Assembly: GCF_013297935.1 (NCBI RefSeq)
Contig: NZ_JAAFIX010000003.1
Span: forward strand, 248,001-312,000
Reading direction: 5' to 3'
From: Rhodoferax sp.
GTDB lineage: Bacteria > Pseudomonadota > Gammaproteobacteria > Burkholderiales > Burkholderiaceae_C
Length of the DNA stretch: 64,000 bases
Shown here one piece after another: positions 1,405 through 41,480 of the stretch. Numbering within the stretch: the stretch's first letter is position 1; each line of letters opens with the position of its first letter. The notes beneath the pieces were generated by a model that was not told where the DNA came from, did no database searches, and saw nothing but the letters and a program-made list of their open reading frames with translations. The translations under genes and the position numbers were made by a program.

Positions 1405-1873
1405 AGACGTTTTTTTGGGCGTGGTAGATGCCGCGCCCCTGGTCGCCATGGACCTGGTGGTGGTGCGCGGCGGCACCGAGATATTGCTAGGCCTGCGCAA
1501 CAACCGCCCCGCCCAAGGCTTTTGGTTTGTGCCGGGGGGGCGCATTCGTAAAAACGAAACCATGCAGGCCGCCATGGCGCGCGTTGCCCACGACGAGCTG
1601 GGCTTGGCGCTGGCCGATTTGCTGGTGCAGCCGCGTCATATGGGTGCCTTTGAGCACTTTTACACTGACTGTTTTGCGGGGGAGGTGGGCGTGTCCACCC
1701 ACTATGTGGTAATGGGCAACCTGGTTACATTGCCCGCTAGCACCGAGCTTGCTGCGGCCGATGCACAGCACAGCGCCCTGCGCTGGTGGCCGCTGGCCGA
1801 GGCACAAGCCGCCGCCGAGGTGCACCGCTTTACCAAAGACTATGTGGATGTCATTTTGCTATCAAAAGAGTAG
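1394..1873 (+). CDS. GDP-mannose mannosyl hydrolase-like Nudix protein
   Basis: A 159-residue Nudix protein. The box reads GGRIRKNETMQAAMARV then AHDELGL; it lacks the usual REXXEE ending, as in the GDP-mannose hydrolases (Gmm/WcaH), which cleave GDP-mannose to GDP and mannose. Length, the N-terminal SKDVFLGVVDAAPLVAMDLVV segment and the FEHFYTD motif also fit that subfamily. It overlaps the preceding gene by 11 bp and lies in the polysaccharide operon, suggesting control of the GDP-mannose pool. The last codons run into a dispersed repeat, so the C-terminus LLSKE is partly repeat-encoded. Confidence 0.85.
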   Translation: MLSKDVFLGVVDAAPLVAMDLVVVRGGTEILLGLRNNRPAQGFWFVPGGRIRKNETMQAAMARVAHDELGLALADLLVQPRHMGAFEHFYTDCFAGEVGVSTHYVVMGNLVTLPASTELAAADAQHSALRWWPLAEAQAAAEVHRFTKDYVDVILLSKE

Positions 1874-1915
1874 CTGTTTGCGAAGACTCTACTTGGGCTA
1901 GAGGCATATTTTGTT
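1854..1915 (+). repeat. Dispersed 60-bp repeat, copy 1
   Basis: Plus orientation. Core TAGCTGTTTGCG at 1871-1882, 12 nt, then GGGCTAGAGG at 1895-1904, preceded by TTTTGCTATC. It covers the end of the Nudix gene and most of the gap before ugd. It shares the fixed 12-nt spacing with seven other copies in the window. Confidence 0.8.
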
Positions 1916-1937
1916 TATATTTGAGAGGGAGTGAGTT

Positions 1938-3260
1938 ATGAAAATTACGGTTATCGGCACTGGCTATGTGGGCTTGGTGTCTGGCGCTTGTTTTGCCGAT
2001 GTGGGCAACGACGTGCTGTGCCTGGATGTAGACCCCGCCAAGATCAAGATCTTGGAGGATGGCGGCATTCCTATCTATGAGCCGGGCCTGCAAGAGATGG
2101 TCAAGCGCAATGTGGCCGCTGGCCGCCTGCACTTCACCACCGATGTAGAAAAAGCTGCCCACTTTGGCACGGTGCAGTTCATTGCGGTGGGCACGCCACC
2201 CGATGAAGACGGCTCGGCCGACATGAAATATGTGATTGCCGCCGCCCGCAACATCGGCAAATACATGACCGACTACAAGGTGGTAGTGGACAAGAGCACG
2301 GTGCCGGTGGGCACCGCCGACCGCGTGAAGGCCGCTATTGCCGACGAGTTGGCCAAGCGCGGTGTGACCACGCCGTTTAGCGTGGTGAGCAATCCCGAGT
2401 TTTTGAAAGAGGGCGCCGCCATTGACGACTTTATGCGGCCCGACCGCATTGTGGTGGGCTGTGAGGACGAGCAAGCCGCACTCAACATGCGCGCGCTGTA
2501 CGCGCCCATTCAGCGCAACCATGACCGCCTGATCGTGATGGATATTCGCAGCGCCGAGCTGACCAAATACGCCGCCAACGCCATGCTGGCCACCCGCATC
2601 AGCTTTATGAACGAGCTGGCCAACCTAGCCGAGAAGCTGGGCGCTGATATTGAAAACGTGCGCAAGGGCATTGGCTCCGACCCACGCATTGGCTACGACT
2701 TTTTGTACGCCGGTGCGGGCTACGGCGGCTCGTGCTTTCCCAAAGACGTGCAGGCGCTGGTGAAGACTGCGCAAGACGACGCGGGAATCAACCTGCAGGT
2801 GCTGACCGCCGTAGAAGCGGCCAACGATGCCCAAAAGCGGGTGCTGGGCGGCAAGGTAATCAAGCGCTTTGGGGCAGACCTGAAGGGCAAGCACTTTGCA
2901 CTGTGGGGCCTGGCCTTCAAGGCCAACACCGACGACATGCGCAAAGCCACCAGCCGCGACGTGATTCAAGACCTGCTGGATGCGGGCGCCACGGTCACGG
3001 CCTATGACCCAGTGGCCATGAAAGAAGCGCAGCACTGTTTCCCCGACGAGCCGCGCCTGACCTATGCTGATAGCCAAACCGCGGCGCTGGAGGGGGCGGA
3101 TGCACTCATCATCGTGACCGAGTGGCGCGAGTTCCGCAGCCCGGACTTTGACAACATCAAGGCCAAGCTCAAGCAGCCGGTGATTTTTGATGGCCGCAAT
3201 CTCTACGACCCCAAGCTAGTGCGCAGCATGGGCATTGAGTACCAGGCGATCGGGCGCTAA
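1938..3260 (+). CDS. ugd: UDP-glucose 6-dehydrogenase
   Basis: A 440-residue NAD-dependent enzyme that oxidises UDP-glucose twice to UDP-glucuronate, a precursor for acidic exopolysaccharide. The N-terminal Rossmann motif is GTGYVGL at residues 7-13. The catalytic cysteine is Cys266 in GGSCFPKD. Other family blocks are [22 protein letters not shown] and [14 protein letters not shown]. Length is normal for the bacterial family. A strong ribosome site, GAGGGAG, precedes the ATG. The next gene follows after 4 bp, so they form one operon. The distinction from GDP-mannose dehydrogenase rests on overall similarity to Ugd and is fairly safe. Confidence 0.95.
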
Positions 3261-3264
3261 CGCC

Positions 3265-4707
3265 ATGACAGTCTTAACCCTTCAAGATATGGCCACCCAG
3301 TCGGGCGTGGCCTTTGGCACCAGCGGCGCGCGCGGCAAGGTAGCCGACATGACGCCCGGCTTGTGCCACGCCTACACCACTGCCTTTTTGAATGCGGTGG
3401 TACCCAAGGCCACCCGCATTGTGCTGGGCCACGATTTGCGCCCCAGCAGCCCCGACATTGCGGCGGCCTGTGCGGCGGCCATTGAGAGCTTGGGCATGGA
3501 GGTGGTGTATGGCGGCGCCCTGCCCACTCCGGCCTTGGCTTTGTATGCGGCGCAAATTGGCTCGCCGGCGATTGTGGTCACGGGCAGCCACATTCCGTTT
3601 GACCGCAACGGCATCAAGTTTTACCGCGAAGATGGCGAGATCACCAAGGTGGACGAGCAGGCCATGCTCAACTTTTTGGTGGGGCTGCCCAAAAACCTCA
3701 AGCTACCCACCCTGCCCGCCCCGGATGCGCGGGTGCTGCAGGCCTACCTGAGCCGCTATATCGACTTTTTTGGCGCCGACGCTTTGGCCGGTGAAACGAT
3801 TGCCGTGTACGAGCACAGCAGCGTGGCGCGCGATGTGTTGCGCAGTATTTTGGAGGCGCTGGGGGCGGAAGTGATTTCGCTGGGGCGCACCGATGTGTTT
3901 GTGCCCATAGACACCGAGGCGGTGCGCCATGAAGACATTGAGCAGGCGCGCGAGTGGGCCGAGTTGCACGATTTTGATGCCCTGGTGTCTACCGACGGCG
4001 ATGCCGACCGCCCTTTGATTGGCGATGAAAAAGGCGAGTGGTTGCGGGGTGATGTAGTGGGCATTTTGACGGCCCAGTACCTGCACGCCACCGCGGTGGT
4101 GACCCCTGTGAGCAGCAACAGTGCGCTGGAGCGCACCCAGAGTTTTGCGCAGGTGGTGCGCACCCGCATTGGCTCGCCTTATGTGATTGAGGGCATGCAG
4201 CAGGCCGCCCGTGGCGGTGCGGACTTGGTGGTGGGCTTTGAGGCGAATGGCGGCTTTTTGCTGGGTAGCCAGGTGCTGCGCAATGGCAAACGCTTAGGGC
4301 CTTTGCCCACCCGCGATGCCGTGCTGCCCATGCTGGCGCTGTTGTGTGGCGCCAAGGCGCAGGGGCTGAAGATGTCGGAAGTGGGCTACCGCCTACCCAA
4401 GCGGTTTACTGCGAGCGACCGGATTCAAAACTTTGCCACGGCCAGCAGCCGCGAACTGATTGCCCGCTTGCGCAACGACCACATAGCCTTGCGCAACCTG
4501 ATGGCGCCCCAGGCCGGCCCGGTGGAGGGCATTGACGAGACCGATGGGCTGCGGGTGCAGTTTGCGTCGGGCGATATCGTGCACTTGCGCCCCAGCGGCA
4601 ATGCCCCCGAACTGCGCTGCTACGCCGAGAGCACCAGTGTGCGCAGTGCCAAGCGTTTGTGTGACGACTGTTTGCTACAGGTCTTGAAAACTGCAGCCCC
4701 TGTGTAA
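3265..4707 (+). CDS. Phosphomannomutase / phosphoglucomutase family protein
   Basis: An alpha-D-phosphohexomutase of 480 residues. The four family elements are visible: FGTSGARGK near the N-terminus, the phosphoserine loop TGSHIPFDRNG with Ser108, the metal loop DGDADRP with Asp244, Asp246 and Asp248, and a C-terminal phosphate-binding segment RPSGNAPELR. The usual loop is TGSHNP; here the Asn is Ile. It probably interconverts mannose-6-P and mannose-1-P to feed GDP-mannose, which fits the upstream GDP-mannose Nudix gene; glucose phosphate is an alternative substrate. The ATG at 3265 is chosen rather than an upstream start inside ugd. Confidence 0.88.
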   Translation: MTVLTLQDMATQSGVAFGTSGARGKVADMTPGLCHAYTTAFLNAVVPKATRIVLGHDLRPSSPDIAAACAAAIESLGMEVVYGGALPTPALALYAAQIGSPAIVVTGSHIPFDRNGIKFYREDGEITKVDEQAMLNFLVGLPKNLKLPTLPAPDARVLQAYLSRYIDFFGADALAGETIAVYEHSSVARDVLRSILEALGAEVISLGRTDVFVPIDTEAVRHEDIEQAREWAELHDFDALVSTDGDADRPLIGDEKGEWLRGDVVGILTAQYLHATAVVTPVSSNSALERTQSFAQVVRTRIGSPYVIEGMQQAARGGADLVVGFEANGGFLLGSQVLRNGKRLGPLPTRDAVLPMLALLCGAKAQGLKMSEVGYRLPKRFTASDRIQNFATASSRELIARLRNDHIALRNLMAPQAGPVEGIDETDGLRVQFASGDIVHLRPSGNAPELRCYAESTSVRSAKRLCDDCLLQVLKTAAPV

Positions 4708-4726
4708 CGATTGAGCGACAACCGGC

Positions 4727-4740
4727 CCGAACGGACTATG
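4727..4740 (+). promoter_or_regulatory. Shared 14-bp motif CCGAACGGACTATG upstream of PEP-CTERM gene
   Basis: The 14-mer ends 76 nt before the chosen PEP-CTERM start. A copy differing at one base lies at 6519-6532, at nearly the same distance (73 nt) upstream of rfbB. That makes it a candidate shared operator or promoter element of the exopolysaccharide locus. Its function is inferred from position only. Confidence 0.4.
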
Positions 4741-4773
4741 TACAGAGCCGAGGGCTAACCCTAGCATGGAACC

Positions 4774-4792
4774 AGCTGAAGTGGTTTCAGCT
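4774..4792 (+). promoter_or_regulatory. Hairpin in the 5' leader of the PEP-CTERM gene
   Basis: AGCTGAA and TTCAGCT form a 7-bp stem with a 5-nt loop, 24 nt before the start codon. A smaller stem AGGG-CTAA-CCCT lies just upstream at 4751-4762. No U-tract follows, so a leader structure or binding site is likelier than a terminator. Confidence 0.35.
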
Positions 4793-4816
4793 CACAACTG
4801 AAATTAAGGGATGTAT

Positions 4817-5302
4817 ATGAAAATGAAAACCGCAATCGCGGCCGCCACTTTGGCGTTGTTTGGTGCTGCTGCAAATGCAACTGATGTAGCTTTTGTGGAT
4901 GGTTTGGCTAACGTTGCCAGCGGCTCGATCACCGGTGCCAAAGGCGTCTCATTCAGCCAAAGCTGGACTTTCAGTGGCCTCACAAGCGGTACCTACAATG
5001 TTGAAGGCAGTTTGGCCGGCAATAACATTTCGTTCACCTCCGTGCTCCTGAATGGTGTGGCGTGGGACCTGAGCGGCACCGCAAAAGCGCCAACAGTGTT
5101 CAAGTTTGCTGACATCAGCTACACCGGCACCGGACCTTGGACTTTGGTGGCCACTGGCACCAAAACTACTGCTTCAGCAGGTAACTTTTCTGGTTCTTTG
5201 AATGTGACCCCCGTGCCTGAACCAGAAACCTACGCCATGCTGCTGGCTGGTTTGGGTGTGATGGGTGCAATCGCCCGCCGCCGCAACAAAACTGCTGCCT
5301 GA
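4817..5302 (+). CDS. PEP-CTERM sorted extracellular protein
   Basis: A small secreted protein of 161 residues. It has a Sec signal peptide (MKMKTAIAAATLALFGAAANA), a Ser/Thr/Gly-rich middle, and a C-terminal PEP-CTERM tripartite tail: VPEPETYAMLLAG, a hydrophobic helix, then RRR. Such tails are recognised by exosortase, whose gene is not in this window but is usually found in or near exopolysaccharide loci. The middle segment FSQSWTF resembles FxDxF-type PEP-CTERM proteins but lacks the Asp. The ATG at 4817 is preferred over 4811 because AAGGG ends directly before 4811, leaving no spacer. It is transcribed separately from the upstream operon, after 109 bp. Confidence 0.88.
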   Translation: MKMKTAIAAATLALFGAAANATDVAFVDGLANVASGSITGAKGVSFSQSWTFSGLTSGTYNVEGSLAGNNISFTSVLLNGVAWDLSGTAKAPTVFKFADISYTGTGPWTLVATGTKTTASAGNFSGSLNVTPVPEPETYAMLLAGLGVMGAIARRRNKTAA

Positions 5303-5325
5303 TCCGCAAGGTTTGCTGCAACGGA

Positions 5326-5356
5326 AAAGGGACTGCAATTGCAGTCCCTTTCTTTA
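5326..5356. terminator. Bidirectional Rho-independent terminator
   Basis: A perfect palindrome with 13-nt arms, AAAGGGACTGCAA and its complement, centred between 5338 and 5339. T-rich sequence flanks it on the plus side and T4 on the minus side. It lies between two convergent PEP-CTERM genes and can serve both. Confidence 0.85.
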
Positions 5357-5381
5357 TGGGCTTTTCAAGCAGGCGGGGCAA

Positions 5382-6026: not shown

Positions 6027-6049
6027 GGTGGTTCTCCCAGGCTTTTGTT

Positions 6050-6445
6050 TTAAAGAATGCCGATCAGGGTGGCGGTGGCTACGCTGCCATTGGGGCCGTT
6101 GAGCGTGCAGTTGACGACAGCGCCCTCAGGCACCGGCAGGGGCAGGCTGCCGCCCAGGCTGTAGTTGGCAGGTAGGCCGCCCTGCAGCAATTGGGCGCCG
6201 TGTGAACAGTCGGTGACCGGCACACCCTTGGTGCCATTGACTTTGCGGGTGGCTATGTTGATGGCTGAGCCGCTGGAAATAGCGCCGGCCACGGCTTGGG
6301 TGGCGGCGGTTTGGGCATCGCTGCGCAAATCCACAAACTTAGGAATGGCCACCGCCGACAGAATGCCCAGAATCACGATGACCATAACGAGCTCAATCAG
6401 GGTAAAGCCGGTTTGCAAGGTGCGTGAGGGGTAGGAGGAGCGCAT
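6050..6445 (-). CDS. Type IV prepilin / MSHA-like pseudopilin
   Basis: A 131-residue prepilin. The class III signal is clear: a short positive leader, then [18 protein letters not shown], with cleavage after Gly14 and Glu at mature position 5. [12 protein letters not shown] follows, as in MSHA-type major pilins. Two cysteines, in TDCSHG and VVNCTLN, could form the C-terminal disulfide. The prepilin peptidase PilD encoded at 13.1 kb could process it. It lies alone among polysaccharide genes, without assembly genes next to it. A rare short pilin, a minor pilin or an adhesin subunit are all possible. Confidence 0.82.
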
Positions 6446-6518
6446 GCGGAGTCTGTAACGAGTTGTTACCCAATGGTATTCAAACTCGGCGGGGTTGGGA
6501 ATAGTCCGGATGACTGAT

Positions 6519-6532
6519 CCGAATGGACTATG
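6519..6532 (+). promoter_or_regulatory. Shared 14-bp motif CCGAATGGACTATG upstream of rfbB, with inverted partner
   Basis: It matches the element at 4727-4740 at 13 of 14 positions. Here it is also the right half of a dyad: AATAGTCCGGAT at 6500-6511 is the inverted counterpart, with GGACTAT facing both ways. The dyad sits in the gap between the divergent prepilin gene and rfbB, where a regulator could control both. Confidence 0.4.
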
Positions 6533-6605: not shown

Positions 6606-7700
6606 ATGACGATTCTGGTGACCGGCGGCGCCGGCTTTATTGGCAGCAACTTTGTGCTGGACTGGCTGGCCGCCTCGGCTGAAACCGTAGTCAACCTGGA
6701 CAAGCTCACCTACGCCGGCAACTTGCAAAACCTAGCCTCGCTGGCGGGCAACCCCGCCCATGTGTTTGTGCAGGGCGATATTGGTGATGCCGAGCTCATG
6801 ACCCGCCTGCTGCAGGAGCACCGGCCCCGCGCGTTGCTGAACTTTGCGGCAGAGAGCCATGTAGACCGCAGCATCCAAGGGCCGGGCGAGTTTATTCAGA
6901 CCAATATTGTGGGCATCTTCCATTTGCTGGAGAGTGTGCGGGCCTACTGGGGCGCACTGGCCGCCGACGACAAGGCAGCGTTCCGGTTTCTGCATGTTTC
7001 GACCGACGAGGTGTATGGCTCACTCGCGAAAGACGATCCGGCCTTCACCGAAACCCACCAGTACGAACCCAACAGCCCTTACAGTGCCAGCAAGGCCGCC
7101 AGCGACCACTTGGTGCGCGCCTACCACCACACCTACGGCCTGCCGGTGCTGACCACCAACTGCAGCAACAACTACGGCCCCTACCATTTCCCCGAAAAGC
7201 TCATTCCGCTGATGATCGTCAACGCGCAGGCCGGCAAGCCCTTGCCGGTGTATGGCGATGGCCAGCAGATCCGCGATTGGCTCTACGTCAAAGACCACTG
7301 CAGCGCCATCCGCCGGGTGCTGGAAGCCGGTGTGCTGGGCGAGACCTATAACGTGGGCGGATGGAACGAGAAGCCTAACCTGGACATCGTGCACACCGTG
7401 TGCGCCCTGCTCGACGAGCTCAAGCCCCGTGCGGACGGCAAGCCTTACCAAGCGCAGATCACGTACGTTACCGACCGCCCCGGCCATGACCGCCGCTACG
7501 CCATTGATGCCCGCAAGATAGAGCAGCAACTGGGCTGGAAGCCGGCCGAGACCTTTGAGACCGGCATCCGCAAAACCGTGCAGTGGTACTTGGACCACCC
7601 CGAGTGGGTAGACAACGTGCTGAGCGGCGGCTACCGCGACTGGGTGAGCAAGCAATATGGCAGCACCAGCGCGCAGCAACCCACGCAGGCTGCAGCATGA
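6606..7700 (+). CDS. rfbB: dTDP-glucose 4,6-dehydratase
   Basis: The second step of dTDP-L-rhamnose synthesis, converting dTDP-glucose to the 4-keto-6-deoxy sugar. It is a 364-residue extended SDR with GGAGFIGSN at residues 7-15, the catalytic STDE motif (Asp134, Glu135), and the YSASK pair Tyr159/Lys163. [10 protein letters not shown] and YNVGGWNEK are characteristic of RmlB. It is the first gene of rfbB-rfbD-rfbA-rfbC, joined by ATGA-type overlaps, so all four steps are made from one message. The ribosome site is weak. The C-terminus has a short Gln/Ala/Thr-rich extension. Confidence 0.96.
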
Positions 7701-8605
7701 AGGTCTTGCTGTTCGGCCGTGATGGCCAGGTAGGCTGGGAGCTGCAGCGCGCTTTGAGCGTGCTGGGCGAGGTCGTGGCGCTGGACTTTGATGCCAGCCA
7801 GAACCCACAAGGTTTGTGCGGTGACTTTACCGACCTCGCAGGCTTGGAGCGCACCGTAGAAGCGGTGCAGCCGGATGTGATCGTCAATGCCGCCGCCCAC
7901 ACCGCGGTGGACAAAGCCGAGAGCGAGCCCGAGCTTGCACGCCTGATTAATGCTCTAGCACCCGCTACTCTTGCGCAAGCAGCTATTAAATCAGGAGCGC
8001 TATTGGTGCATTACAGCACCGACTATGTGTTTGACGGCAGCGGCGACACGCCGTGGACAGAAACGGACACCACCGGCCCTTTGAGCGTGTATGGCCAGAC
8101 CAAGTTGGAAGGTGAACAGGCCGTGGCTGCCTGCCCTCAGCACCTGATATTGCGCACCAGCTGGGTGTACGCCACCCGGTGTGGCAACTTTGCCAAAGCC
8201 ATGCTGCGCCTGGCGGGTGAGCGGGATTCACTCACGGTAATTAACGACCAGTTTGGCGCCCCGACTTCGGCGGAGCTGCTGGCCGATGTGACGGCCCACG
8301 CCATCTGCCGCCTGCAAACCCAACCCCAACTCGCCGGGCTGTACCACTGCATTGCGGCAGGCGAGACCACCTGGCATGGTTATGCCCAATTTGTCTTGCA
8401 ACAAGCCGCCTCTCTGGGCCTGCCGCTCAAGGCCACCGCTGACAAGGTGGCGCCCGCGCCCACCAGCAGCTACCCCACACCGGCCCGCCGCCCACTGAAC
8501 TCAAGGCTAGACACCCGCAAACTGCAGGTGGCCTTTGGCCTGACGCTGCCCCCTTGGCAGCACGGGGTGCAGCGCATGTTGACCGAAATAGCCGGGGAAC
8601 GATGA
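7697..8605 (+). CDS. rfbD: dTDP-4-dehydrorhamnose reductase
   Basis: The last step of the pathway, reducing dTDP-4-dehydrorhamnose with NAD(P)H. It has 302 residues, starting [16 protein letters not shown] with the Rossmann glycines. [13 protein letters not shown] and [10 protein letters not shown] are the classic RmlD blocks, and YGQTKLEGE carries the catalytic Tyr and Lys. The ATG at 7697 overlaps the rfbB stop by 4 bp. Codons for roughly residues 82-103 coincide with an inverted copy of the window's dispersed repeat, yet frame and family length are kept. That segment encodes [17 protein letters not shown], between two conserved motifs. Confidence 0.95.
7942..8003 (-). repeat. Dispersed 60-bp repeat, copy 2, inside rfbD
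   Basis: Minus orientation. Read on the minus strand, TAGCTGCTTGCG (7985-7974) is followed by 12 nt and GTGCTAGAGC (7961-7952), preceded by GCTCCTGATTTAA. It is the closest match to the inferred consensus core and is fully within coding sequence. Confidence 0.75.
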
Positions 8606-10067: not shown

Positions 10068-10074
10068 GGGTGTG

Positions 10075-15398: not shown

Positions 15399-15602
15399 AT
15401 GAGTCAAAGCGCTGTAGAAAAATTGGTGCGTTGCCCCGGGTGTGGAGGCGATAGCGTCTACGGCCCCGCTAATCTTTACCGCCCGTTTTGCAGCGAGCGC
15501 TGCAAAAATTTAGACCTAGGCGCGTGGGCGAGCGAGTCTTTCAGGGTGCCGACAGAGGCGCCCCCCGAAGATGCCCAGTTCGGCGATCCAAAACTTCAAT
15601 AA
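15399..15602 (+). CDS. yacG: DNA gyrase inhibitor YacG (zinc-binding)
   Basis: A 67-residue zinc-finger protein whose E. coli homologue binds GyrB and blocks DNA binding by gyrase. The four ligands are visible in RCPGCGG and [14 protein letters not shown], and the tail is acidic. The ATG at 15399 has GGGGAG 8 nt upstream, so it is preferred to the in-frame TTG at 15393. It ends the pilBCD-coaE-zapD-yacG run and converges on mutT; between the two lies a copy of the dispersed repeat. Confidence 0.93.
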
Positions 15603-15660
15603 ATTACGGTACTAGCCCGCACAGTGTCTGCGGTTTATGCTCCTGAAATAGTAGCAGCCT
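15600..15660 (-). repeat. Dispersed 60-bp repeat, variant copy 3, at the mutT stop
   Basis: Minus orientation and more diverged. GAGCATAAACCG (15642-15631) is followed by 12 nt and GGGCTAGTAC (15618-15609). The mutT stop codon TAA lies inside it. A stem CCGCA/TGCGG at 15617-15633 could act as a terminator for the two convergent genes. Confidence 0.6.
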
Positions 15661-16108
15661 GATATCCGCGTTCTTCGGCGAACCAATCCAACACGGGAAC
15701 GGTGCCTGGAAGAATGGGCGCCACGTTCACAGGCAGCTGCTGCCAGGCGAACTTTTGGGACTCCCGCATTTCGAGCTCGCCCACCCAATCAAATACTTTG
15801 CAGAAATTCAGGCGCACCAGCGCATGTGGGTAGTCAACAAGCTCAGTTCGCCAAGCTTGTGCATCACCGATACGGATGCCTATTTCCTCGATGAGCTCAC
15901 GCCGTAGCGCCTGCTCTACCGTCTCCCCGGGCTCCACCTTGCCACCGGGGAACTCCCAATAACCAGCGTAGGCCTTGCCTTCGGGTCGAGACGTCAATAG
16001 GAATGCGCCATCGGGCCGGAGTAAAACGCCTACTGCGACCTCGACGACAGGACGATCGCTTCCTCCCGTACGGTGCAGATCCGGGTCGGCAATCAGGGGT
16101 GATGTCAT
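15635..16108 (-). CDS. mutT: 8-oxo-dGTP diphosphatase (Nudix, MutT-like)
   Basis: A nucleotide-pool sanitiser that hydrolyses oxidised dGTP. It has 157 residues with a perfect Nudix box, GGKVEPGETVEQALRRELIE followed by EIG, and the YWEFPGGK lead-in typical of MutT. The start overlaps the stop of the DUF815 ATPase gene by 4 bp. The last residues, ATISGA, and the stop come from the dispersed repeat copy. Betaproteobacterial MutT proteins are often fused to a thiamine phosphate synthase-like domain; this one is not. Confidence 0.92.
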   Translation of the reverse strand: MTSPLIADPDLHRTGGSDRPVVEVAVGVLLRPDGAFLLTSRPEGKAYAGYWEFPGGKVEPGETVEQALRRELIEEIGIRIGDAQAWRTELVDYPHALVRLNFCKVFDWVGELEMRESQKFAWQQLPVNVAPILPGTVPVLDWFAEERGYQAATISGA

Positions 16109-22448: not shown

Positions 22449-22524
22449 TGGTGCCGATTATCGGATTCGAACTGATGACCTACCGCTTACAAGGCGGTTG
22501 CTCTACCAACTGAGCTAAATCGGC
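22449..22524 (-). tRNA. tRNA-Thr (anticodon TGT)
   Basis: A 76-nt cloverleaf on the minus strand. The acceptor stem pairs GCCGATT with AATCGGC, the D loop contains AGTTGGTAGA, the anticodon stem-loop is ACCGC-CTTGTAA-GCGGT, and the T arm holds TTCGAATC. The 3' CCA is encoded. Anticodon TGT reads ACA threonine codons. Confidence 0.97.
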
Positions 22525-33411: not shown

Positions 33412-33427
33412 GGTGTGAATACGCGCT

Positions 33428-33841
33428 TTACTTGTAAATGGATTCAGGGTCTTTCAGCACCGGGTCCACCGCCGCCCACACGCCGTCCTTCAGCACACTG
33501 AAGAAGCAGCTGTGGCGACCGGTGTGGCAGGCAATCCCCGGCTCGTGGCCCAACTGGGTCACTTTGAGCAAGATAACGTCACTGTCGCAGTCCATGCGAA
33601 TCTCATGGACTTTCTGCACATGGCCCGACTCCTCGCCCTTGAACCAGAGCTTGTCACGCGAGCGGCTGAAATACACCGCCTGCCCGAGCTCCACCGTTTT
33701 TTGCAACGCTTCGCGGTTCATCCAGGCAAACATCAGCACATCGCCGGTGGTTTGCTCTTGCGCAATCACCGGCACCAGGCCTTTGGAGTCCCAGCGAATG
33801 TGCTTGATCCAGCTGACGGGAGGGGTAGTGGGAGTGTCCAT
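33428..33841 (-). CDS. hisI: Phosphoribosyl-AMP cyclohydrolase
   Basis: Third step of the pathway, opening the purine ring of PR-AMP. It has 137 residues. [20 protein letters not shown] and [18 protein letters not shown] are signature blocks, and metal ligands lie in [11 protein letters not shown] and [10 protein letters not shown]. Its start codon touches a dispersed repeat that fills the gap to hisF. Confidence 0.96.
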
Positions 33842-33903
33842 TTGCTACTTTTTTAATAGCTACTCGCGCAATATTAGCGAGGGCTAGAGGCCAAAAAGGC
33901 TTA
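33841..33903 (+). repeat. Dispersed 60-bp repeat, copy 4, filling the hisF-hisI gap
   Basis: Plus orientation. TAGCTACTCGCG (33857-33868), 12 nt, then GGGCTAGAGG (33881-33890) and CCAAAAAGGC. It occupies the whole space between hisF and hisI; the hisF stop and the first base of the hisI start codon are at its edges. Confidence 0.8.
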
Positions 33904-34680
33904 AATCCGGACGGGAATTCCCCGCTCGGCCATACGGGCCTTGGCTTGGCCCACGGTGTATTCACCGTAGTGGAAGATGCTGGCCGCCAACACGGCGTCC
34001 GCCCCACCCTGCTGCACACCATCGGCCAGATGGTCGAGGTTGCCTACGCCACCGCTAGCAATCACCGGCACACTGATGGCGTCTGCCACCGCGCGGGTCA
34101 GCGCCAGGTCAAAACCGCTCTTGGTGCCGTCGCGGTCCATGCTGGTGAGCAAAATCTCACCAGCCCCACGCCGGGCCATTTCGGTCGCCCACACCACGGC
34201 ATCGAGACCGGTGTTTTTACGCCCACCGTGGCTGTAGACATCCCAGCCGGCGCCACGGGTGGCGGCGTCTTCAGCCGAGCGCCGCTTGGCGTCGATGGCG
34301 ACCACAATGGCCTGCGAACCATACTTGTGCGAAGCGTCTTCAATCACTTGCGGGTTGGCCAATGCAGCGGAGTTGAAGCTGACCTTGTCGGCACCGGCAT
34401 TGAGCAGGCGGCGCACATCTTCGACCACCCGCACGCCACCACCCACGGTGAGCGGAATAAACACCTGGGATGCCACGGCTTCGATGATGTGCAGGATCAG
34501 GTCGCGCCCATCGCTGGTGGCCGTGATGTCGAGGAAGGTGAGCTCGTCGGCGCCCTGGTCGTTGTAGCGGGCGGCAATCTCCACCGGGTCACCGGCATCG
34601 CGCAGCTCGACAAAATTGACGCCTTTGACGACGCGACCACCGGTCACGTCCAGGCACGGAATGATGCGTTTAGCGAGCAT
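33901..34680 (-). CDS. hisF: Imidazole glycerol phosphate synthase, cyclase subunit
   Basis: The TIM-barrel subunit that builds imidazole glycerol phosphate with ammonia from HisH. It has 259 residues: [20 protein letters not shown], the catalytic Asp in [12 protein letters not shown], and [15 protein letters not shown] with the second Asp. [13 protein letters not shown] closes the phosphate site. It shares one base with the hisA stop. Only hisI and hisE of the pathway follow it. Confidence 0.97.
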
Positions 34681-36780: not shown

Positions 36781-36790
36781 AGCGACTCCT

Positions 36791-36858
36791 GCCGAGCCGC
36801 CTCCAAGGAGGCGACGGCCCCCTTGGGGGGCAGCGAACGAATGTAAGCGTGGGGGTTC
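36791..36858. repeat. GC-rich double-hairpin intergenic repeat between hisC and hisB
   Basis: Two adjacent stems: CGCCTCC-AA-GGAGGCG and GCCCCC-TT-GGGGGGC, followed by AGCGAACGA and AAGCGTGGGGG. From memory, similar GC-rich double hairpins recur between genes in Comamonadaceae; I cannot confirm that here. Only one copy is in the window. It would fold strongly in the his mRNA. Confidence 0.6.
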
Positions 36859-38017
36859 ATAGTATTTCCTGCAGGGCCTGAATCAGTCGGGCGTTTTCGT
36901 CGGCGGTGCCAACCGTCAAACGCAAACAACGGGCCAGCAATGGGTGCATTTTAGAAACGTTCTTGACCAGCACCCCGCGCGCCTTCAAACCATCGAAGAC
37001 TTTTTGGGCTGCATCGTCGGCACCGGCAAAGCGGACCAGCACCATATTGGCATCGCTGTCCCAGGCTTTCACGCCGGGCATGGCGCGCAATGCTCCTAAA
37101 AGCATAGCGCGTTGCGCACATATCTCTTGGGCTTGCGCCGCAAAAGCCTCTTGATGCTCCAAGGCAAACAGCGCGCACTCGTAGTTGAGCACGCTGATGT
37201 TGTAGGGCGGGCGCACCTTGTCAATCTGGCCGATCAGGGCGGCCGGGCCAGTCATGTAGCCCAGGCGCACACCGGCCAAGCCGAACTTGCTCAGGGTGCG
37301 CATCAGCACCACATGGCTGTGGGCGGCGGGGTTGGCGCGAATCACGTCCATGAAGGTGCGGCTGGAGAACGGCTGGTAGGCCTCGTCCACCGCCACGATG
37401 CTGCCGGCCTGCTTGGCTGCGGCGATGACCGTGGCCATGTCGGCCTCGTCCCACAGGTTGGCGGTGGGGTTGTTGGGGTAAGCCAGGTAGACGATGGCGG
37501 GCTGCCGCTCGGTGATGGCCTGCACCATGGCGGGCACATCGAGGGCAAAGTCTTCGGTGAGCGGCACGCCCACAAAGTCCAGCCCCTGCAGCTGCGCGCT
37601 CATGGCGTACATCACAAAACCCGGCGTGGGCGCCAGCACCACAGGGCGGGCTTCGCCCGGCTGGGCGGGCACATCGCAGGCCATGGAGAGCAGGCTGATC
37701 AGCTCGTCCGAGCCATTGCCCAGCATGATGTCGTGGCCGGCCGGCATGCCGGCATAGGCGGCGAGTGCGGTGCGCAAATCATCCACACGGCCATCGGGGT
37801 AGCGGTTCAGCGCCAGCGCGCCCAGGCGTTGGCCCAACTCGGCTTGCAGGTGGGCGGGCAGCGAAAACGGGTTCTCCATGGCATCGAGCTTGACCATGCC
37901 TTTGGAGTCTTGGATGGCGTAGGCGTGCATGCTCTGCACATCCTGGCGGATGCGGCGCGCAATCAGCGCCTGAACGTCAGCGGCTATGTCGGCAGAAGTA
38001 TCAGCTGAAGAAGTCAT
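36857..38017 (-). CDS. hisC: Histidinol-phosphate aminotransferase
   Basis: A PLP enzyme of 386 residues that makes histidinol phosphate. [12 protein letters not shown] binds the cofactor phosphate, [14 protein letters not shown] is the Asn-containing block, and the PLP lysine is Lys244 in [14 protein letters not shown]. Residues about 290-309 (around [18 protein letters not shown]) are encoded by DNA that fits the dispersed repeat. It starts 19 bp after the toxin gene vapC, which is unusual: hisD is normally its upstream neighbour. Confidence 0.96.
37092..37150 (+). repeat. Dispersed 60-bp repeat, copy 5, inside hisC
   Basis: Plus orientation, on the template strand of hisC. TAGCGCGTTGCG (37105-37116), 12 nt, GGGCTTGCGC (37129-37138), then CAAAAGCCT, preceded by GCTCCTAAAAGCA as in copy 2. 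It is more diverged than copies 1, 2, 4 and 6. Confidence 0.55.
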
Positions 38018-38036
38018 GCAGTGGCTTTCAAAAAAA

Positions 38037-38501
38037 CTAGTCGGCCAGCGCCAGGTCGGCGGGCGTGGCTTGCAAAGGGTTCAGGATGGTGATGCCGTCC
38101 ATCTGCTGGCCGTGCTGCAGGTCGAACGACAGCACATGGCTGGCCCCGCTCTGCGCGGCGGCGGCCACCACCAGTGCGTCCCAATACGGCAGGCCGAAGC
38201 GGGCTTCCACGCCCCAGGCGGTTTCTACCGTCTGGTGGTCAATCTGCCAAGGCTGCCAGAGCTGGTAGCGGCGCAGCTTGGCGCGCGCATCGCCCTGCGG
38301 CATGGCGAAGTGGCGGGTGGCCCCCACGTAATAGGCGTTGAGCACCTGGGTGCTGATGCGCCCTGCCCGGCGCTGCCACAGCGCCTGCAGCCATTCGCGC
38401 ACACGGGCTTGGCGGGCGGCGTCAAACGCGTCGTCGGCGGCCAGCAGCACATTGGTGTCTACAAACACAATGGCGCCGGAGGTGTCGAGCGGGCTAGCCA
38501 T
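38037..38501 (-). CDS. vapC: PIN-domain toxin, VapC-like
   Basis: A 154-residue PIN ribonuclease-like protein. The acidic metal-binding residues appear in IVFVDTNVLLAADD (first Asp), GLPYWDALVVAAAAQSG and SFDLQHG (last Asp). The ATG at 38501 overlaps the antitoxin stop by 8 bp; the open frame further upstream is antitoxin sequence in another frame. VapC toxins cleave specific RNAs, often tRNA. Here the gene is inserted in the his cluster and ends 19 bp before hisC, so the two should share a transcript. The exact RNA target is unknown. Confidence 0.88.
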   Translation of the reverse strand: MASPLDTSGAIVFVDTNVLLAADDAFDAARQARVREWLQALWQRRAGRISTQVLNAYYVGATRHFAMPQGDARAKLRRYQLWQPWQIDHQTVETAWGVEARFGLPYWDALVVAAAAQSGASHVLSFDLQHGQQMDGITILNPLQATPADLALAD

Positions 38502-38718
38502 TGTGGAGATCCCGAGCTGGGTACGCCTTGCCACCCGAGCTGAAGCTGGACGTATCCGCCACCCAATCGCGCTGGGCGCGGGCGTAGGCGTCGTCGTGCT
38601 GCATCTTGTCGGTGAGCATCTCACCCACCAAGCGCGACACGCTGGTGTTACGCCGCGCCGCCTCGATCCGCACCCACTCCAGGGTGGCGTCTTCAACGGT
38701 GATGGTGACGTTTTTCAT
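38494..38718 (-). CDS. vapB: Ribbon-helix-helix antitoxin, VapB-like
   Basis: A 74-residue protein with an N-terminal ribbon-helix-helix DNA-binding domain (MKNVTITVEDATLEWVRIEA, then RRNTSVSRLVGEML) and a C-terminal half that should wrap the toxin (AYARAQRDWVADTSSF). The ATG at 38718 is the first conserved start; a GTG at 38751 would lie inside the operator. Tandem palindromes directly upstream are the expected binding sites for autoregulation. Confidence 0.88.
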   Translation of the reverse strand: MKNVTITVEDATLEWVRIEAARRNTSVSRLVGEMLTDKMQHDDAYARAQRDWVADTSSFSSGGKAYPARDLHNG

Positions 38719-38731
38719 TTGAAGGCAGTTT

Positions 38732-38761
38732 ACACGAAATTCGTGTTGCACGAAATTCGTG
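38732..38761. promoter_or_regulatory. Tandem palindromic operators of vapBC
   Basis: Two identical 13-bp palindromes, CACGAAATTCGTG, at 38733-38745 and 38749-38761, centres 16 bp apart. The first extends to 15 bp (ACACGAAATTCGTGT). They lie 15-43 bp upstream of the vapB start, where an RHH antitoxin would bind cooperatively. Confidence 0.85.
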
Positions 38762-38817
38762 TGAATTTTCTAGGGTTTATGGATAGGGCCAACGAGCATC
38801 GCGCACGTGCCTCGGGC

Positions 38818-38823
38818 TATAGT
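38818..38823 (+). promoter_or_regulatory. Candidate -10 box TATAGT for the divergent small gene
   Basis: TATAGT lies 33 nt before a strong Shine-Dalgarno, GGGAGGGG at 38842-38849. No convincing -35 box is seen; the sequence 17 nt upstream is AGCATC. Confidence 0.3.
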
Positions 38824-38855
38824 GCGACGAAAGCAAAAAACGGGAGGGGTGAACG

Positions 38856-38960
38856 ATGATGGCTGCTCAAGCTAAAAAGAGCACATGGAGGCTGGCGGGT
38901 TTACCGCTATCTTTATATGAGCAGCTTGCGCTTATTCCGCGAGGGCTGGAGGCCAATTAG
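38856..38960 (+). CDS. Possible 34-residue small ORF
   Basis: A short frame, MMAAQAKKSTWRLAGLPL to GLEAN, too short for a usual gene call. It has a very strong ribosome site (GGGAGGGG, 7 nt spacing) and a possible -10 box. Its second half is encoded by a copy of the dispersed repeat, which argues against an old conserved protein: it may be a leader peptide for the membrane-protein gene 58 bp downstream, or an interrupted gene remnant. Confidence 0.35.
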   Translation: MMAAQAKKSTWRLAGLPLSLYEQLALIPRGLEAN

Positions 38961-38967
38961 GCTGGTA
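38903..38967 (+). repeat. Dispersed 60-bp repeat, copy 6
   Basis: Plus orientation. GCTAT at 38906, GAGCAGCTTGCG (38919-38930), 12 nt, GGGCTGGAGG (38943-38952), then CCAATTAGGCTGG. It faces copy 7 (39660-39732) in the opposite orientation, and the two bracket the membrane-protein gene. Confidence 0.7.
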
Positions 38968-39018
38968 AATCTGCCGGAATATCCGACTCAGATACATCAC
39001 GTTAAACAGCGAGAGCCT

Positions 39019-39501
39019 ATGAGATCCATTGCCTACTTTTTGTGCACTGTATTGGTCGCACTCCCGACTTTGCATTGGCTTGTCGTGTCCTTATTGACGC
39101 TGCTGAAAGTTCAAGTTCCATACAACTCGCTTCTTTCACTTCTTTTTTCGTTTGGATCTTTGCTTCCTTTTACGTTTGCTTGGGCCCCTCCACGCGCGCT
39201 TACGATGCTTCTGGGATATGCAATGATGTTTTTGGTCCTGCGACGGATTTGGTTATTCGTAGTGAAGAAGGAGCGAACACCGGCTTCATTTGTGGGGCTT
39301 CAAAAGGCGCTTGGCTACGTCGGATTCTGGTCTCTCTCGCTTAGTGTTCTGGTGTTGATACTCAGCATAGCGCTGAGCGCCGGTTCGGGTGTTCCAGCGG
39401 GCCTGCTAATGATGCCCGCGATGTTCTGCGTGCCTTGGGCGTTTTTCATAACCGAGGTCACTAGCTTCACGCGGAAGGCTGCTGCTCGTGCGACTGTTTA
39501 A
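39019..39501 (+). CDS. Hypothetical membrane protein in the his-cluster insertion
   Basis: A 160-residue protein I do not recognise. It has four hydrophobic segments: residues about 4-25 (IAYFLCTVLVALPTLHWLVV), 35-52, 60-80 (RALTMLLGYAMMFLVL) and 100-145, with a short basic C-terminus. Codon choice is visibly more AT-rich than the neighbouring his genes, with many CTT/TCG/TTT codons, suggesting foreign origin. It is transcribed against the his genes, and inverted repeat copies lie on both sides. GAGAG 6 nt before the ATG is a modest ribosome site; a longer start at 38917 would run through the repeat. Confidence 0.6.
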   Translation: MRSIAYFLCTVLVALPTLHWLVVSLLTLLKVQVPYNSLLSLLFSFGSLLPFTFAWAPPRALTMLLGYAMMFLVLRRIWLFVVKKERTPASFVGLQKALGYVGFWSLSLSVLVLILSIALSAGSGVPAGLLMMPAMFCVPWAFFITEVTSFTRKAAARATV

Positions 39502-39659
39502 CTGGTCGCCCAAGTCGGACGCCTTCGGCGCCCCTTGGCTTCGGCGTTGCTCAAAACCCTAGCCTGCATACCCCAATTGCCTCACTGTGCGCTCACACAC
39601 AACGTCACACTGCTACAGACCGGATTCAAAACAAACCGAACCGCCAACTCCCGCCGAAT
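39502..39659. other. Gap downstream of the membrane-protein gene with no recognised feature
   Basis: This stretch holds no open frame with a ribosome site. A small CG-rich stem, CGCCTTCGGCG, near 39527 could be a weak terminator of the membrane-protein gene but has no T-tract. Confidence 0.4.
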
Positions 39660-39732
39660 TCTTAGGCTTTTCGGACCCTAGCCCTTACGAAATATGCGCA
39701 AGCAGCTATCGAATAGATAGCAAAAAAACCTA
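39660..39732 (-). repeat. Dispersed 60-bp repeat, copy 7
   Basis: Minus orientation. On the minus strand: TTTTTTTGCTATC, TAGCTGCTTGCG (39708-39697), 12 nt, GGGCTAGGGT (39684-39675), then CCGAAAAGCCTAAG. Its hairpin lies just after the stop of the Rap1a-like gene (39739), a terminator-like position. Confidence 0.8.
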
Positions 39733-39738
39733 ACGGAT

Positions 39739-40125
39739 TCACAAACAGGGATAAACCGTCCCCAGCGCGTTCACCACCACCAGTTGCACCGGGAAGTCGG
39801 CCTCGTAGAGGTCGGCGTTGCGCTTGAGTTCGGATGTGTAGATGTTTTTGGCCATGCTGGGCTCCAGCCTGCGGCCGTTGAGACAGATGCTGGCGGGGGC
39901 TCCGGCGCGCACTGCTTGGGCGTGGGCCTCTAGCGCCCCCTCCATAACGCCGACGAGGTAGTAGTCGGTGTAGGTGCTGCCTTGTTTCTCGGTCTTCTCC
40001 AAGGCCCGCATTTCGCGGATGGTCATGGCCTGGGCGGTGGAGGCCGCAGCAAGACACAGGGCGAACATGGCTGCCGCTTGCCGCAGCAGGGAGAGATTGT
40101 TAGGGGTGTGAGGTGTGGTGCGCAT
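39739..40125 (-). CDS. Secreted small protein, possibly Rap1a/Tai-like
   Basis: A 128-residue protein with a signal peptide (LSLLRQAAAMFALCLAAASTAQA). The mature part, TDYYLVGVMEGALEAH, ICLNGRRLEPS and the final VYPC cysteine, resembles the pattern of Rap1a/Tai immunity proteins (YxxGxxxG, two cysteines), but the match is weak. It begins 29 bp after hisD on the same strand and so is likely cotranscribed. No toxin partner is visible. I would call it a secreted protein of unknown function. Confidence 0.6.
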   Translation of the reverse strand: MRTTPHTPNNLSLLRQAAAMFALCLAAASTAQAMTIREMRALEKTEKQGSTYTDYYLVGVMEGALEAHAQAVRAGAPASICLNGRRLEPSMAKNIYTSELKRNADLYEADFPVQLVVVNALGTVYPCL

Positions 40126-40154
40126 AGGGCTTGGTCGTCCTGATGCGCGCAACC

Positions 40155-41471
40155 TTACTTCAATCGCATTTCCGCCGCACGCGCATGGGCTTGCAGGCCC
40201 TCGCCGTGGGCCAGCACCGAGGCGATCTGCCCCAGCGCCTGCGCGCCCTGCTCGCTCACCTCGATCAGGCTGCTGCGCTTCTGGAAATCGTACACGCCCA
40301 GCGGGCTGCTAAACCGTGCGGTGCCGCTGGTGGGCAGCACGTGATTGGGGCCAGCGCAGTAGTCGCCTAGGCTCTCGGAGGTGTAGGCGCCCAAAAAGAT
40401 GGCACCGGCGTGCTTGAGCAGCGACTCCCAGCGGTGCGGGTCATTGCTGCTTACTTCCAAGTGCTCGGGCGCGATGCGGTTGCTGATGTCGCAGGCTTCT
40501 TCCATGCTGCGGGTCCGGATCAGTGCGCCACGGCCGGTAAGGCTCTTGGCAATGATCTCGGCGCGCGGCATTTCGGGCAGCAGGCGGTTGATGCTTTGCT
40601 GCACTTGCTCGATGTAAGCCGCGTCGGGGCACAGCAAAATGCTTTGCGCCAGCTCGTCGTGCTCGGCCTGGCTGAACAAGTCCATGGCCACCCAGTCGGG
40701 CGGCGTGGTGCCGTCGGCCAGCACCAAAATTTCGCTGGGGCCGGCAATCATGTCGATGCCCACCGTGCCAAACACGCGGCGCTTGGCGGCGGCCACATAG
40801 GCGTTGCCGGGGCCGGTGATTTTGTGCACCGCGGGAATGGTGGCAGTGCCATAGGCCAATGCAGCCACGGCTTGCGCGCCACCGATGGTGAAGGCGCGGG
40901 TGACGCCGGCCACATAGGCGGCAGCCAGCACCAGTGCGTTCTTCTCGCCCTTGGGCGTAGGCACCACCATGATGATTTCGTCCACTCCGGCCACGTGGGC
41001 GGGGATGGCGTTCATCAACACGCTGCTGGGGTACGCCGCTTTGCCGCCGGGCACATAAATGCCCACGCGGTCCAGCGGCGTGACCTTTTGGCCCAAGAGC
41101 GTGCCGTCTTCGTCGCGGTAGGTCCAGCTCTCGCCGGAGGCCTTCTTTTGTGCTTCGTGGTAGCTGCGTACGCGCTTTGCGGCGGCCTCCAGCGCAGAGC
41201 GCTGGTCTGCGGGAATGCTGTCAAACGCGGCTTTGAGCTCGGCCTGGGTCAGCTCCAGCGCTTTCATGTCGGGGGCGCTCAGGCCGTCGAAACGGGCGGT
41301 GTACTCCAGCACGGCGGCATCACCACGCAGCTGCACGTCGGCCAGGATGTCGGCCACGCGCTGCTCGATGGCGGCGTCGGTGTCCGCAGACCAATGCAGG
41401 CGCGCCTTGAAATCAGCCTCAAAAGTGGCGCTAGCTGTCGAAAGACGTGCGGGAGCAGCTACAAAATTCAT
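40155..41471 (-). CDS. hisD: Histidinol dehydrogenase
   Basis: Zinc enzyme of the last two oxidations to histidine. It has 438 residues. [53 protein letters not shown] and [17 protein letters not shown] are the classic blocks including the catalytic Glu/His region. The start [20 protein letters not shown] lies wholly in a repeat-like segment that also supplies the region before the ATG. GGAAA about 10 nt upstream is the ribosome site. Confidence 0.97.
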
Positions 41472-41480
41472 AGCAAAATA
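41416..41480 (-). repeat. Dispersed 60-bp repeat, copy 8, at the hisD start
   Basis: Minus orientation. TTTTGCTATG (containing the hisD ATG), TAGCTGCTCCCG (41461-41450), 12 nt, CAGCTAGCGC (41437-41428), then CACTTTTGAGGC. It encodes about the first 18 residues of HisD. Confidence 0.6.

Follow-up and report, generated by a model that had tools for sequence, protein, structure and literature searches.

The window, the whole 64,000-nucleotide stretch of Rhodoferax sp. DNA analysed here, contains ten copies of one repeated element, set among genes that include rmlD, a histidine biosynthesis (his) cluster and the gene for the large subunit of glutamate synthase. The eight sites listed by a first-pass annotation are real, each being scored by our weight matrix (copies 1 to 8 below), and copies 9 and 10 lie beyond them. 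Orthologues are given for two congeners, G399 and G405, and for G413 and G407 where found.

Copy 1, 1857..1921, + strand: score 70.0; overlaps a NUDIX gene (1394-1873, +) at its 3' end and supplies its TAG stop; a UDP-glucose dehydrogenase-type gene (1938-3260, +; Pfam) lies downstream; G399 and G405 have orthologues at this place.
Copy 2, 7935..7999, - strand: score 42.6; inside rmlD (7583-8605, +), antisense; orthologues in G399 and G405.
Copy 3 (weak), 15592..15656, - strand: score 40.5; shares 22 bp with a NUDIX gene (15635-16108, -) at its 3' end, same strand; orthologues in G399 and G405 score 28.6 and 27.3.
Copy 4, 33843..33907, + strand: score 74.8; a phosphoribosyl-AMP cyclohydrolase gene (33428-33841, -) on one side and a HisA/HisF-family gene (33901-34680, -), overlapped by 7 bp, on the other, antisense to both (Pfam); same place in G399, G405 and G413.
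Copy 5 (weak), 37091..37155, + strand: score 38.1; inside a his-cluster aminotransferase gene (36857-38017, -), antisense; the site scores 28.7 in G399 and 30.5 in G405, and is not seen in G413 (-11.3).
Copy 6, 38905..38969, + strand: score 63.2; intergenic by gene calls; one of its flanks was not located in G399 or G405.
Copy 7, 39658..39722, - strand: score 66.6; intergenic by gene calls; again, one of its flanks was not located in G399 or G405.
Copy 8, 41411..41475, - strand: score 51.2; across the start of hisD, same strand (Pfam Histidinol_dh), encoding by the gene call the N-terminus of the protein; orthologues in G399, G405, G413 and G407.
Copy 9, 49495..49559, + strand: score 48.0; inside the gene, at the C-terminal end, of the glutamate synthase large subunit (49480-54294, -), antisense (Pfam); orthologues in G399, G405 and G413.
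Copy 10 (weak), 59219..59283, - strand: score 25.2; at, or immediately upstream of, the point where an HD-domain gene starts (ORF 58055-59227, -); scores 44.0 in G399 and 48.3 in G405 at the same place.

The element is a single rigid motif of 65 bp and about 53 bits (52.9 bits across 67 positions), found 69 times in 464 kb, or once per 6.7 kb. Its left box is a 17-bp dyad-like sequence (GCTAY, an A/T tract, RTAGC), to the right of which follow a middle box, GCGC...GSGC, and then an A/T tail; it is with this tail that the repeat, previously put at 60 bp, reaches its length of about 65 bp. The spacing is as exact as had been claimed. In G000, the genome of the window, the left half and the right box stand at offset 0 in 54 cases and at no other offset within 12, the A and B blocks at offset 0 in 61 cases and never 1-2 either way, and the B and C blocks at offset 0 in 50 cases and never at 1-2. 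The 12-nt spacer is indeed fixed in length, but it is not free in sequence as had been supposed, since its first two bases, C and A, are worth about 1.4 bits apiece and its other positions are biased. Furthermore, the dinucleotide TpA is depleted in both A/T tracts in G000 (8 observed versus 25.8 expected, and 1 versus 13.0) and is likewise avoided in G405 and G420, as double-stranded shape readout would predict.

As the copies align gap-free, a weight matrix was used instead of a covariance model. The first version, whose training set of 30 copies was drawn from contigs other than C12 and C23 (the contig of the window), gave 64 matches in 464 kb and none in a 3-mer shuffle, a result under which the claim of a repeat family survives the shuffled-sequence comparison proposed for it. 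Retrained on its own matches, the matrix gave 69 and none in reversed sequence, so that the motif is over-represented across the core genome (69 copies versus 0 in controls). The simpler two-box pattern with at most three mismatches recovered five of the eight listed sites and nothing else in the window, and 100 shuffles yielded 0. The matrix scan covered at most ~23% of any genome; extrapolation from 69 copies in 464 kb gives ~540 per genome, and 131 close copies were counted genome-wide. The his region had been named as a place where copies crowd; over 400 kb of C12, the spacing between copies is about random (CV 1.16). Exact matches also occur in IMG/VR, in 8 stretches from 7 contigs (DNA of phage or host).

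Conservation, position in genes and species dialects

Orthologous copies at the same place and on the same strand were found for 49 of the 69 in G399 and for 61 of the 69 in G405, in a search via the motif matrix, a method biased towards conserved copies. Identity at low-information positions is 0.59-0.60 between orthologues and 0.31-0.35 between non-orthologues, which speaks against copying from site to site. High-information positions are held at 0.85-0.87, both inside and between genes, while low-information positions drift near the level of the flanks. Third-codon identity of in-gene copies was likewise compared with that of the same gene's flanks, genes with less than 70% ungapped identity being excluded; it is 0.722 versus 0.597 in G399, with 21 of 25 genes retained (p 2e-7), and 0.679 versus 0.624 in G405, with 20 of 28 retained (p 0.03). 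Of the strong copies that could be judged in both other species (27, 24 and 33), none was a private gain; two further strong copies are missing from one relative and could not be aligned in the other, and such absences as occur between species are deletions or one decayed copy. Lineage-specific segments hold 2 of 56 copies versus 9.4 expected, both in one 11-kb segment at a block end. Within the genus, a pattern match is present in 34 of 61 genomes, and at least 10 matches occur in 30 of 150 genomes of the family, which bears out the link to Comamonadaceae that the first-pass annotation had suggested. G543, G587 and G530 are among the genomes with 100 matches or more, and G434, G554 and G416 among those with zero. 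The carriers are patchy, which argues that the function is dispensable.

Thirty-three of the 69 copies lie inside genes, the remainder lying between genes and often at 3' ends. As a correction to the gene-end placement claimed earlier, three of the ten copies in the window (7942, 37092 and 49495) are inside genes by the gene calls. The element occurs on both strands, and within genes it has mostly one open frame per strand; 22 of the 33 in-gene copies are antisense. An insertion would add 21 residues to the encoded protein, whereas five in-gene cases differ from solved structures by 0-10 residues: RmlD by 0 (the region of copy 2 being ungapped in the three RmlD alignments shown), NadE by 1-3, MurI by 3-5, AroA by 5 and enoyl-CoA hydratase by ~1-10. 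In a TrmH-type gene, among the best 30 of 149 matched genomes, the element (score at least 20) occupies the same codons in 21, and the protein has no gap there in 29. Seven of the nine genomes without the element at this site have zero pattern matches genome-wide. G350 and G539 retain a weak copy (~32) there though they have zero matches genome-wide, and in G418 it is absent despite 24 matches elsewhere. One case is contrary: at C12:141034 the element-free relative L291 falls short by 12 residues, a difference that an insertion would account for; in some comparisons among element-bearing relatives, protein lengths near the element differ by 3-18 residues. With no 21-residue difference and no births, an insertion element is disfavoured for the in-gene copies, this 12-residue case notwithstanding.

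The species differ in a concerted manner at one base. At the 61 orthologous sites, position 47 is G in 51 in G000 and C in 58 in G405, with the neighbouring bases unchanged, and G399 is mixed (C 30, G 19, n=49). Of the 47 sites found in all three species, 36 combine a G in G000 with a C in G405, inside as well as between genes. A shift at position 50 is partial (T at 51 of 61 in G000; T at 29 and C at 31 of 61 in G405), and genomes also differ at position 35 and in the spacer. The position-47 difference rests on a single species trio. Gene conversion was rejected as its cause, as low-information bases stay site-specific. A change of this kind at orthologous sites suggests that the element is read by a putative protein.

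Alternative explanations

Genome-wide motifs with species dialects, with copies in and between genes and with A/T-rich regions beside the core are familiar from the DNA uptake sequences of Neisseriaceae (DUS) and, for the A/T-rich regions in particular, the uptake signal sequences of Pasteurellaceae (USS), as far as the accessible portions of the sources describe them (PMC3630211, PMC12616744). A comparable system in Comamonadaceae, in which a competence receptor would prefer motif-bearing DNA and uptake with recombination would spread and maintain the motif, is unlikely, if worth serious consideration. The scarcity of copies in lineage-specific segments is consistent with such a system. All 30 family genomes with at least 10 matches have the ComEC domain (PF03772), but so do 114 of the remaining 120; at 144 of 150 genomes, its presence carries no information on an uptake role. 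Ongoing site gain by drive is expected of DUS and USS, and it was not seen here, no private copy having been found among those judged. Last, at 65 bp the element exceeds both DUS (~13 nt) and USS (up to 32 nt), by the lengths given in the available text of PMC12616744, and any uptake role for it would be putative.

REP elements with their RAYT transposases are short, palindrome-bearing chromosomal repeats present in many copies, a description that fits our element as well, and its preference for gene ends adds to the likeness. We nonetheless think it improbable that the element is a REP- or MITE-like relic, dispersed in the distant past by a Y1 transposase (RAYT) and since fixed. The single Y1_Tnp gene of the genome does sit in the window (54432-55199), and such a gene is present in 27 of the 30 genomes with at least 10 matches; however, the gene in the window is not flanked by any copy, 85 of the 120 genomes below that threshold have a Y1_Tnp gene as well, and no Y1_Tnp match was found in G505 (18 matches) or G548 (97 matches). 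A RAYT partner is therefore unsupported, the presence of Y1_Tnp not following the copies. The length differences near the element noted above could be read as traces of movement, but the many in-gene copies are without insertions of unit length, absences trace to deletion or decay rather than birth, and a relic would not be expected to change one base in concert.

A replication-polarised motif such as KOPS or Chi is very improbable. Strand biases do exist: 44 of 59 copies are on the + strand in C12:1-400000, the sampled arms of G405 are unequal (right 36+/60-, left 25+/13-, p 0.004), and sampled stretches of G420 give 21+/8- in the first half and 13+/14- in the second (p 0.10, with halves not set by a mapped origin). 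In G405, however, the sign flips part-way along the right arm, from 12+/2- close to the origin to 15+/48- towards the terminus (p 3e-5), so the sampled copies show no switch at dnaA, and the antisense placement of in-gene copies may contribute to the bias.

That the element is a structured RNA or transcription signal (hairpin, terminator or sRNA) we regard as barely credible: the inverted repeats GCTAT/ATAGC and GCGC/GCGC and the frequent placement at 3' ends are in its favour, as is the pairing of the stated stems in 75% of cells versus 33-44% when slid, which conserved complementary arms would give, but the compensatory changes sought in the hairpin gave no clear signal (lowest p 0.015 among many pairs tested in three genomes, at one outer pair, 26-54, in G000, with 0.047 in G420), none of five RNAalifold pairs in a 31-copy alignment shows a double change, 136 of 500 shuffles reach the covariation score of the structure, copies take both orientations relative to genes with many inside them and antisense, and the only Rfam match in the window is a tRNA (22452-22524). 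A loop inversion in the left box, AAA to TTT, was entertained as a putative hairpin process.

Published relatives

Fragments of the element have been known since 2017, as motifs without an assigned function. The accessible part of that study lists, in Table 7, the spaced pair GCTTAT(N)5AAGCG with 114 copies in Acidovorax ebreus and ATAGCT(N)22CAAAAG with 125 in Polaromonas naphthalenivorans, the largest number of motif pairs (140) being in Rhodoferax ferrireducens; the pairs sit near genes, and the authors argue against a role in transcription initiation (PMC5217627). Both fit the 65-bp element in register. The first has 5 matches in 400 kb of G420, each in element-like sequence as judged by eye, and ATAGCT-N22 ends at the element's CTAGAG box. 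The same part of the paper differs from the present account in treating spaced pairs only, without mention of a 65-bp unit, of conservation between orthologues or of dialects, and in placing its pairs mostly between genes (94% and 81%; PMC5217627), whereas 33 of 69 copies are in genes here. The beta-proteobacterial repeat element, BRE, of Bordetella and Comamonadaceae resembles ours in being a repeat with some copies wholly within coding sequences; by its published description it would differ in being, in Bordetella, 75-91 bp long, 69% GC, sometimes tandem and only moderately conserved in context, and the listed Comamonadaceae have 1-29 copies of it (Hot et al. 2011, PMC3110155). In the literature searched, including by box sequences, no description of the whole 65-bp element was found.

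A putative recognition site

The first-pass annotation had offered a structured or a protein-bound unit. The first part is not supported, the hairpin arms being without clear covariation; the second is indirectly supported by the rigid spacing, the conserved motif positions, the TpA-poor tracts and the one-base difference between lineages. Taken together, we consider it probable that the element is an ancient, vertically inherited recognition site in double-stranded DNA for a putative sequence-specific DNA-binding factor of Comamonadaceae. The many sites of a genome would all be read by one dedicated trans-acting factor; the position-47 difference would reflect a change in its binding specificity, and in a lineage that had lost the factor the sites would be expected to erode in place. 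As to its role, our first guess would be a chromosome-level address serving chromosome organisation or maintenance, and our second a mark of self of the DNA-uptake-sequence type. Among the points that run against a recognition site, 53 bits is very long and information-rich for a single DNA-binding protein, the carriers are patchy, and erosion is imperfectly tied to genome-wide loss, as G350, G539 and G418 illustrate at the TrmH site.

More tentatively, the recognition site may belong to a genome-wide architectural or self-recognition system of Comamonadaceae that has so far gone unrecognised, in which a multi-domain protein would read ~500 fixed 65-bp addresses. Such addresses might be imposed on coding sequence where needed, and re-spelled site by site when the specificity of the protein changes. 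The putative reader would then be a bacterial counterpart, by analogy only, of CTCF, an architectural factor with long sites.

Long motifs overlaid on conserved protein genes, and shifting in concert, would point to a reader with genome-wide reach, in a family that is large and well sequenced. That reader would be expected to differ between G-dialect and C-dialect species, and to be missing or altered where the sites have eroded. The split between G and C at position 47, with G399 mixed, makes the co-evolution of a recognition code and its putative reader directly testable.

A spaced 65-bp motif family

The eight sites first noticed in the window are real and form one family, as judged by pattern and matrix scans whose shuffled and reversed controls were empty. 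Across the 3.61 Mb Rhodoferax genome that contains the window (G000), a two-box pattern (11-base gap, at most three mismatches) matched 131 times, and the backwards pattern not once. A first matrix, whose 30 training copies all came from contigs other than those scanned, detected 64 copies in the 64-kb window together with 400 kb of contig C12, and none in a 3-mer shuffle of the sequence; retrained with its own matches it found 69, and none in reversed sequence at thresholds of 10 to 20. This density, one copy per 6.7 kb, extrapolates to about 540 per genome. The consensus, TTGCTATTAATTTAATAGCTGCTTGCGCATAATCTACGAGGGCTAGAGGCCTATTTGACTCAAAA, carries 52.9 bits over matrix positions 8-74.

The element consists of GCTAY-N-(A/T tract)-N-RTAGC, a GCGCA...GSGC piece with CTAGAGG, and an A/T tail. 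The exact spacing claimed by the first-pass annotation holds, the register of the three pieces being constant: 61 left boxes and 50 right boxes of G000 stand at the expected distance from the core and none lies one or two bases to either side, while in the congener G405 the counts at offset 0 are 66 and 57, with a few scattered elsewhere. The tail is looser, its spacing peaking at the expected value yet with many matches away from it. Most A/T tracts read AAA, TTT, AAT or ATT, and TpA occurs in the two tracts 8 and 1 times in G000 (25.8 and 13.0 expected), 6 and 5 times in G405 (32.1 and 28.6), and 9 and 1 times in G420, a further genome compared (19.7 and 13.6). Such strand-symmetric avoidance is the pattern that readout of double-stranded DNA shape would give. 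The accompanying suggestion of a structured unit found no such backing, as the hairpins of three genomes gave no clear covariation: stem-arm pairing did not clearly exceed column shuffles, the smallest of many p values being 0.015, for a single outer pair. In a separate alignment RNAalifold found none of five pairs doubly changed. The arms are complementary, and the stated three-stem structure pairs 75% of cells against 33-44% when slid, but it does no better than shuffles.

Two fragments of the element appeared in a 2017 paper as spaced motif pairs from Acidovorax ebreus and Polaromonas naphthalenivorans, with no function assigned (PMC5217627); both pairs are in register with the element. As described in 2011, the beta-proteobacterial repeat element BRE shares host range and in-gene copies with our element but is unlike it in length, base composition and arrangement, the comparison being one of descriptions rather than sequences (PMC3110155). 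No description of the whole element was found in the literature searched, most subscription journals lying outside that search.

Placement, inheritance and turnover

Our own simple gene calls place 33 of the 69 copies wholly within genes, 22 across a gene end (mostly 3') and 14 in intergenic DNA, in sequence that is about 91% coding. Antisense orientation accounts for 22 of the 33 in-gene copies. These copies mainly use one frame per strand; on C12, at scores of at least 35, antisense copies occupy frame 1 in 15 of 17 cases and sense copies frame 2 in 7 of 8. Three copies (window 1857-1921 and two on C12) share 17 bp with the 3' end of a gene on their own strand, and the window copy supplies the TAG stop codon of the overlapped gene.

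As far as tested, the in-gene copies are not extra protein. An inserted 65-bp unit would add about 21 residues, and five in-gene proteins were compared with PDB relatives (three alignments each).

Length differences at the element relative to PDB relatives
RmlD: no gap
NadE: 1-3 residues
AroA: 5 residues
MurI: about 3-5 residues
Enoyl-CoA hydratase: about 1-10 residues

In the loci of other genera that were compared, most relatives have the element on matching codons; the four comparisons with element-free relatives differ by 0, 0, 7 and 12 residues, the first three being remote (28-29% identity). The 12-residue difference, between C12:141034 and the element-free stretch L291, is compatible with an insertion. 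Among the best-scoring 30 of 149 genomes matched for a TrmH-type gene, 21 have the element (called at a score of at least 20) on the same codons, and 29 have a protein that is ungapped at the site. The nine genomes lacking it there have genome-wide pattern matches of 0 (seven genomes), 1 (one) and 24 (one). Two further genomes, G350 and G539, hold weak copies at this site yet have no pattern match elsewhere. The protein tree, itself weakly supported, requires five changes of element state.

Orthologous copies at the same place and strand were located for 49 of the 69 in the congener G399 and 61 of the 69 in G405, the remainder mostly having flanks that fail to align. Where both other species were alignable, no strong copy (score at least 45) was private to one species among the 27, 24 and 33 judged in G000, G399 and G405, respectively; absences at judged sites were deletions or one decayed copy, and two further strong copies are missing from one relative, the site in the other relative failing to align. 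Seven lineage-specific segments, each at least 1.5 kb long and together 67 kb, contain 2 of 56 copies where 9.4 would be expected (p 0.004); these two share the final segment, which closes the analysed block. Copies scoring at least 30 are absent from two lineage-specific stretches of 20-23 kb (L033-L035; C12 about 41997-64655 and 67225-86927).

Selection and the position-47 dialect

When G000 is compared with its congeners, high-information positions are 0.85-0.87 identical, whether the copy is genic or intergenic; the corresponding values are 0.54-0.56 for low-information positions of intergenic copies and 0.51-0.60 for intergenic flanks aligned without gaps. Third-codon identity, with less well aligned genes dropped, is 0.722 in the element versus 0.597 in the rest of the gene for G399 (21 genes) and 0.679 versus 0.624 for G405 (20 genes, p 0.03). 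The sites do not overwrite one another; low-information identity is 0.59-0.60 for orthologues and 0.31-0.35 for non-orthologues.

Position 47 runs counter to this general conservation, being G in 51 of 61 G000 sites and C in 58 of the 61 orthologous G405 sites, whereas its neighbours 46 and 48 remain at identities of 0.94-1.00; since the matrix that located the G405 copies favours G here, search bias opposes the result. In G399 both bases occur (30 C, 19 G), and over the 47 sites found in all three species, genic and intergenic, G/C/C (G000/G399/G405) occurs 21 times and G/G/C 15 times. Position 50 shows a partial shift as well. We infer that this dialect reflects a specificity change in a putative trans-acting reader.

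Distribution and candidate role

Exact matching against GTDB species genomes yielded at least 116 stretches; the 80 titles listed refer to genera of Comamonadaceae or to wider categories such as beta proteobacterium. Order-wide, at up to two mismatches, 8 of 399 genomes matched, 6 of them among the 12 sampled from the family itself and 2 outside it with one match each. Within the family, at three mismatches, the pattern occurs one or more times in 64 of 150 genomes and at least ten times in 30 (maximum 315); the reversed control gave one or two matches in 17 of the 150, and so single matches mean little. In the genus, 34 of 61 genomes match, or 20 of 29 of good quality. This within-genus patchiness, to which incomplete genomes contribute, fits repeated loss of a dispensable putative reader. 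Seven IMG/VR contigs, named by the database as viral, carry exact matches in eight stretches (L318-L325), and in two of these stretches a further copy lies about 300 bp from the first.

Copies show a strand bias, and a polarity set by replication is at most a tentative reading of it. On C12, 44 of 59 lie on the plus strand; the two arms of G405 carry 36+/60- and 25+/13- (p 0.004), with a sign change inside the right arm, not at dnaA, from 12+/2- to 15+/48- (p 3e-5). In G420, halves split by position rather than origin-mapped arms give 21+/8- and 13+/14- (p 0.10).

The first rival is an uptake mark of the DUS/USS type, the best-known phenomenon to combine dialects with in-gene sites, but the length of the element and the lack of births do not fit. 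G000 has a single detected Y1_Tnp (IS200-like, RAYT-type transposase domain) gene:
window 54432-55199 (-), Y1_Tnp gene
It has syntenic counterparts in G399 (73% amino-acid identity) and G405 (66%). Across the family such genes occur in 27 of the 30 genomes where the element pattern matches ten times or more, and in 85 of the 120 others. One family member, G431, has 20 Y1_Tnp matches, several equal-scoring, and 244 element matches. A promoter or RNA role is argued against by the both-strand, in-gene and 3'-end placement.

Given this both-strand and in-gene placement, the misfit with DUS/USS and the distribution of Y1_Tnp, we prefer a chromosome-level DNA-binding reader; as read from sequence, the element is most likely the site of such a putative factor, with a role at the level of the chromosome.
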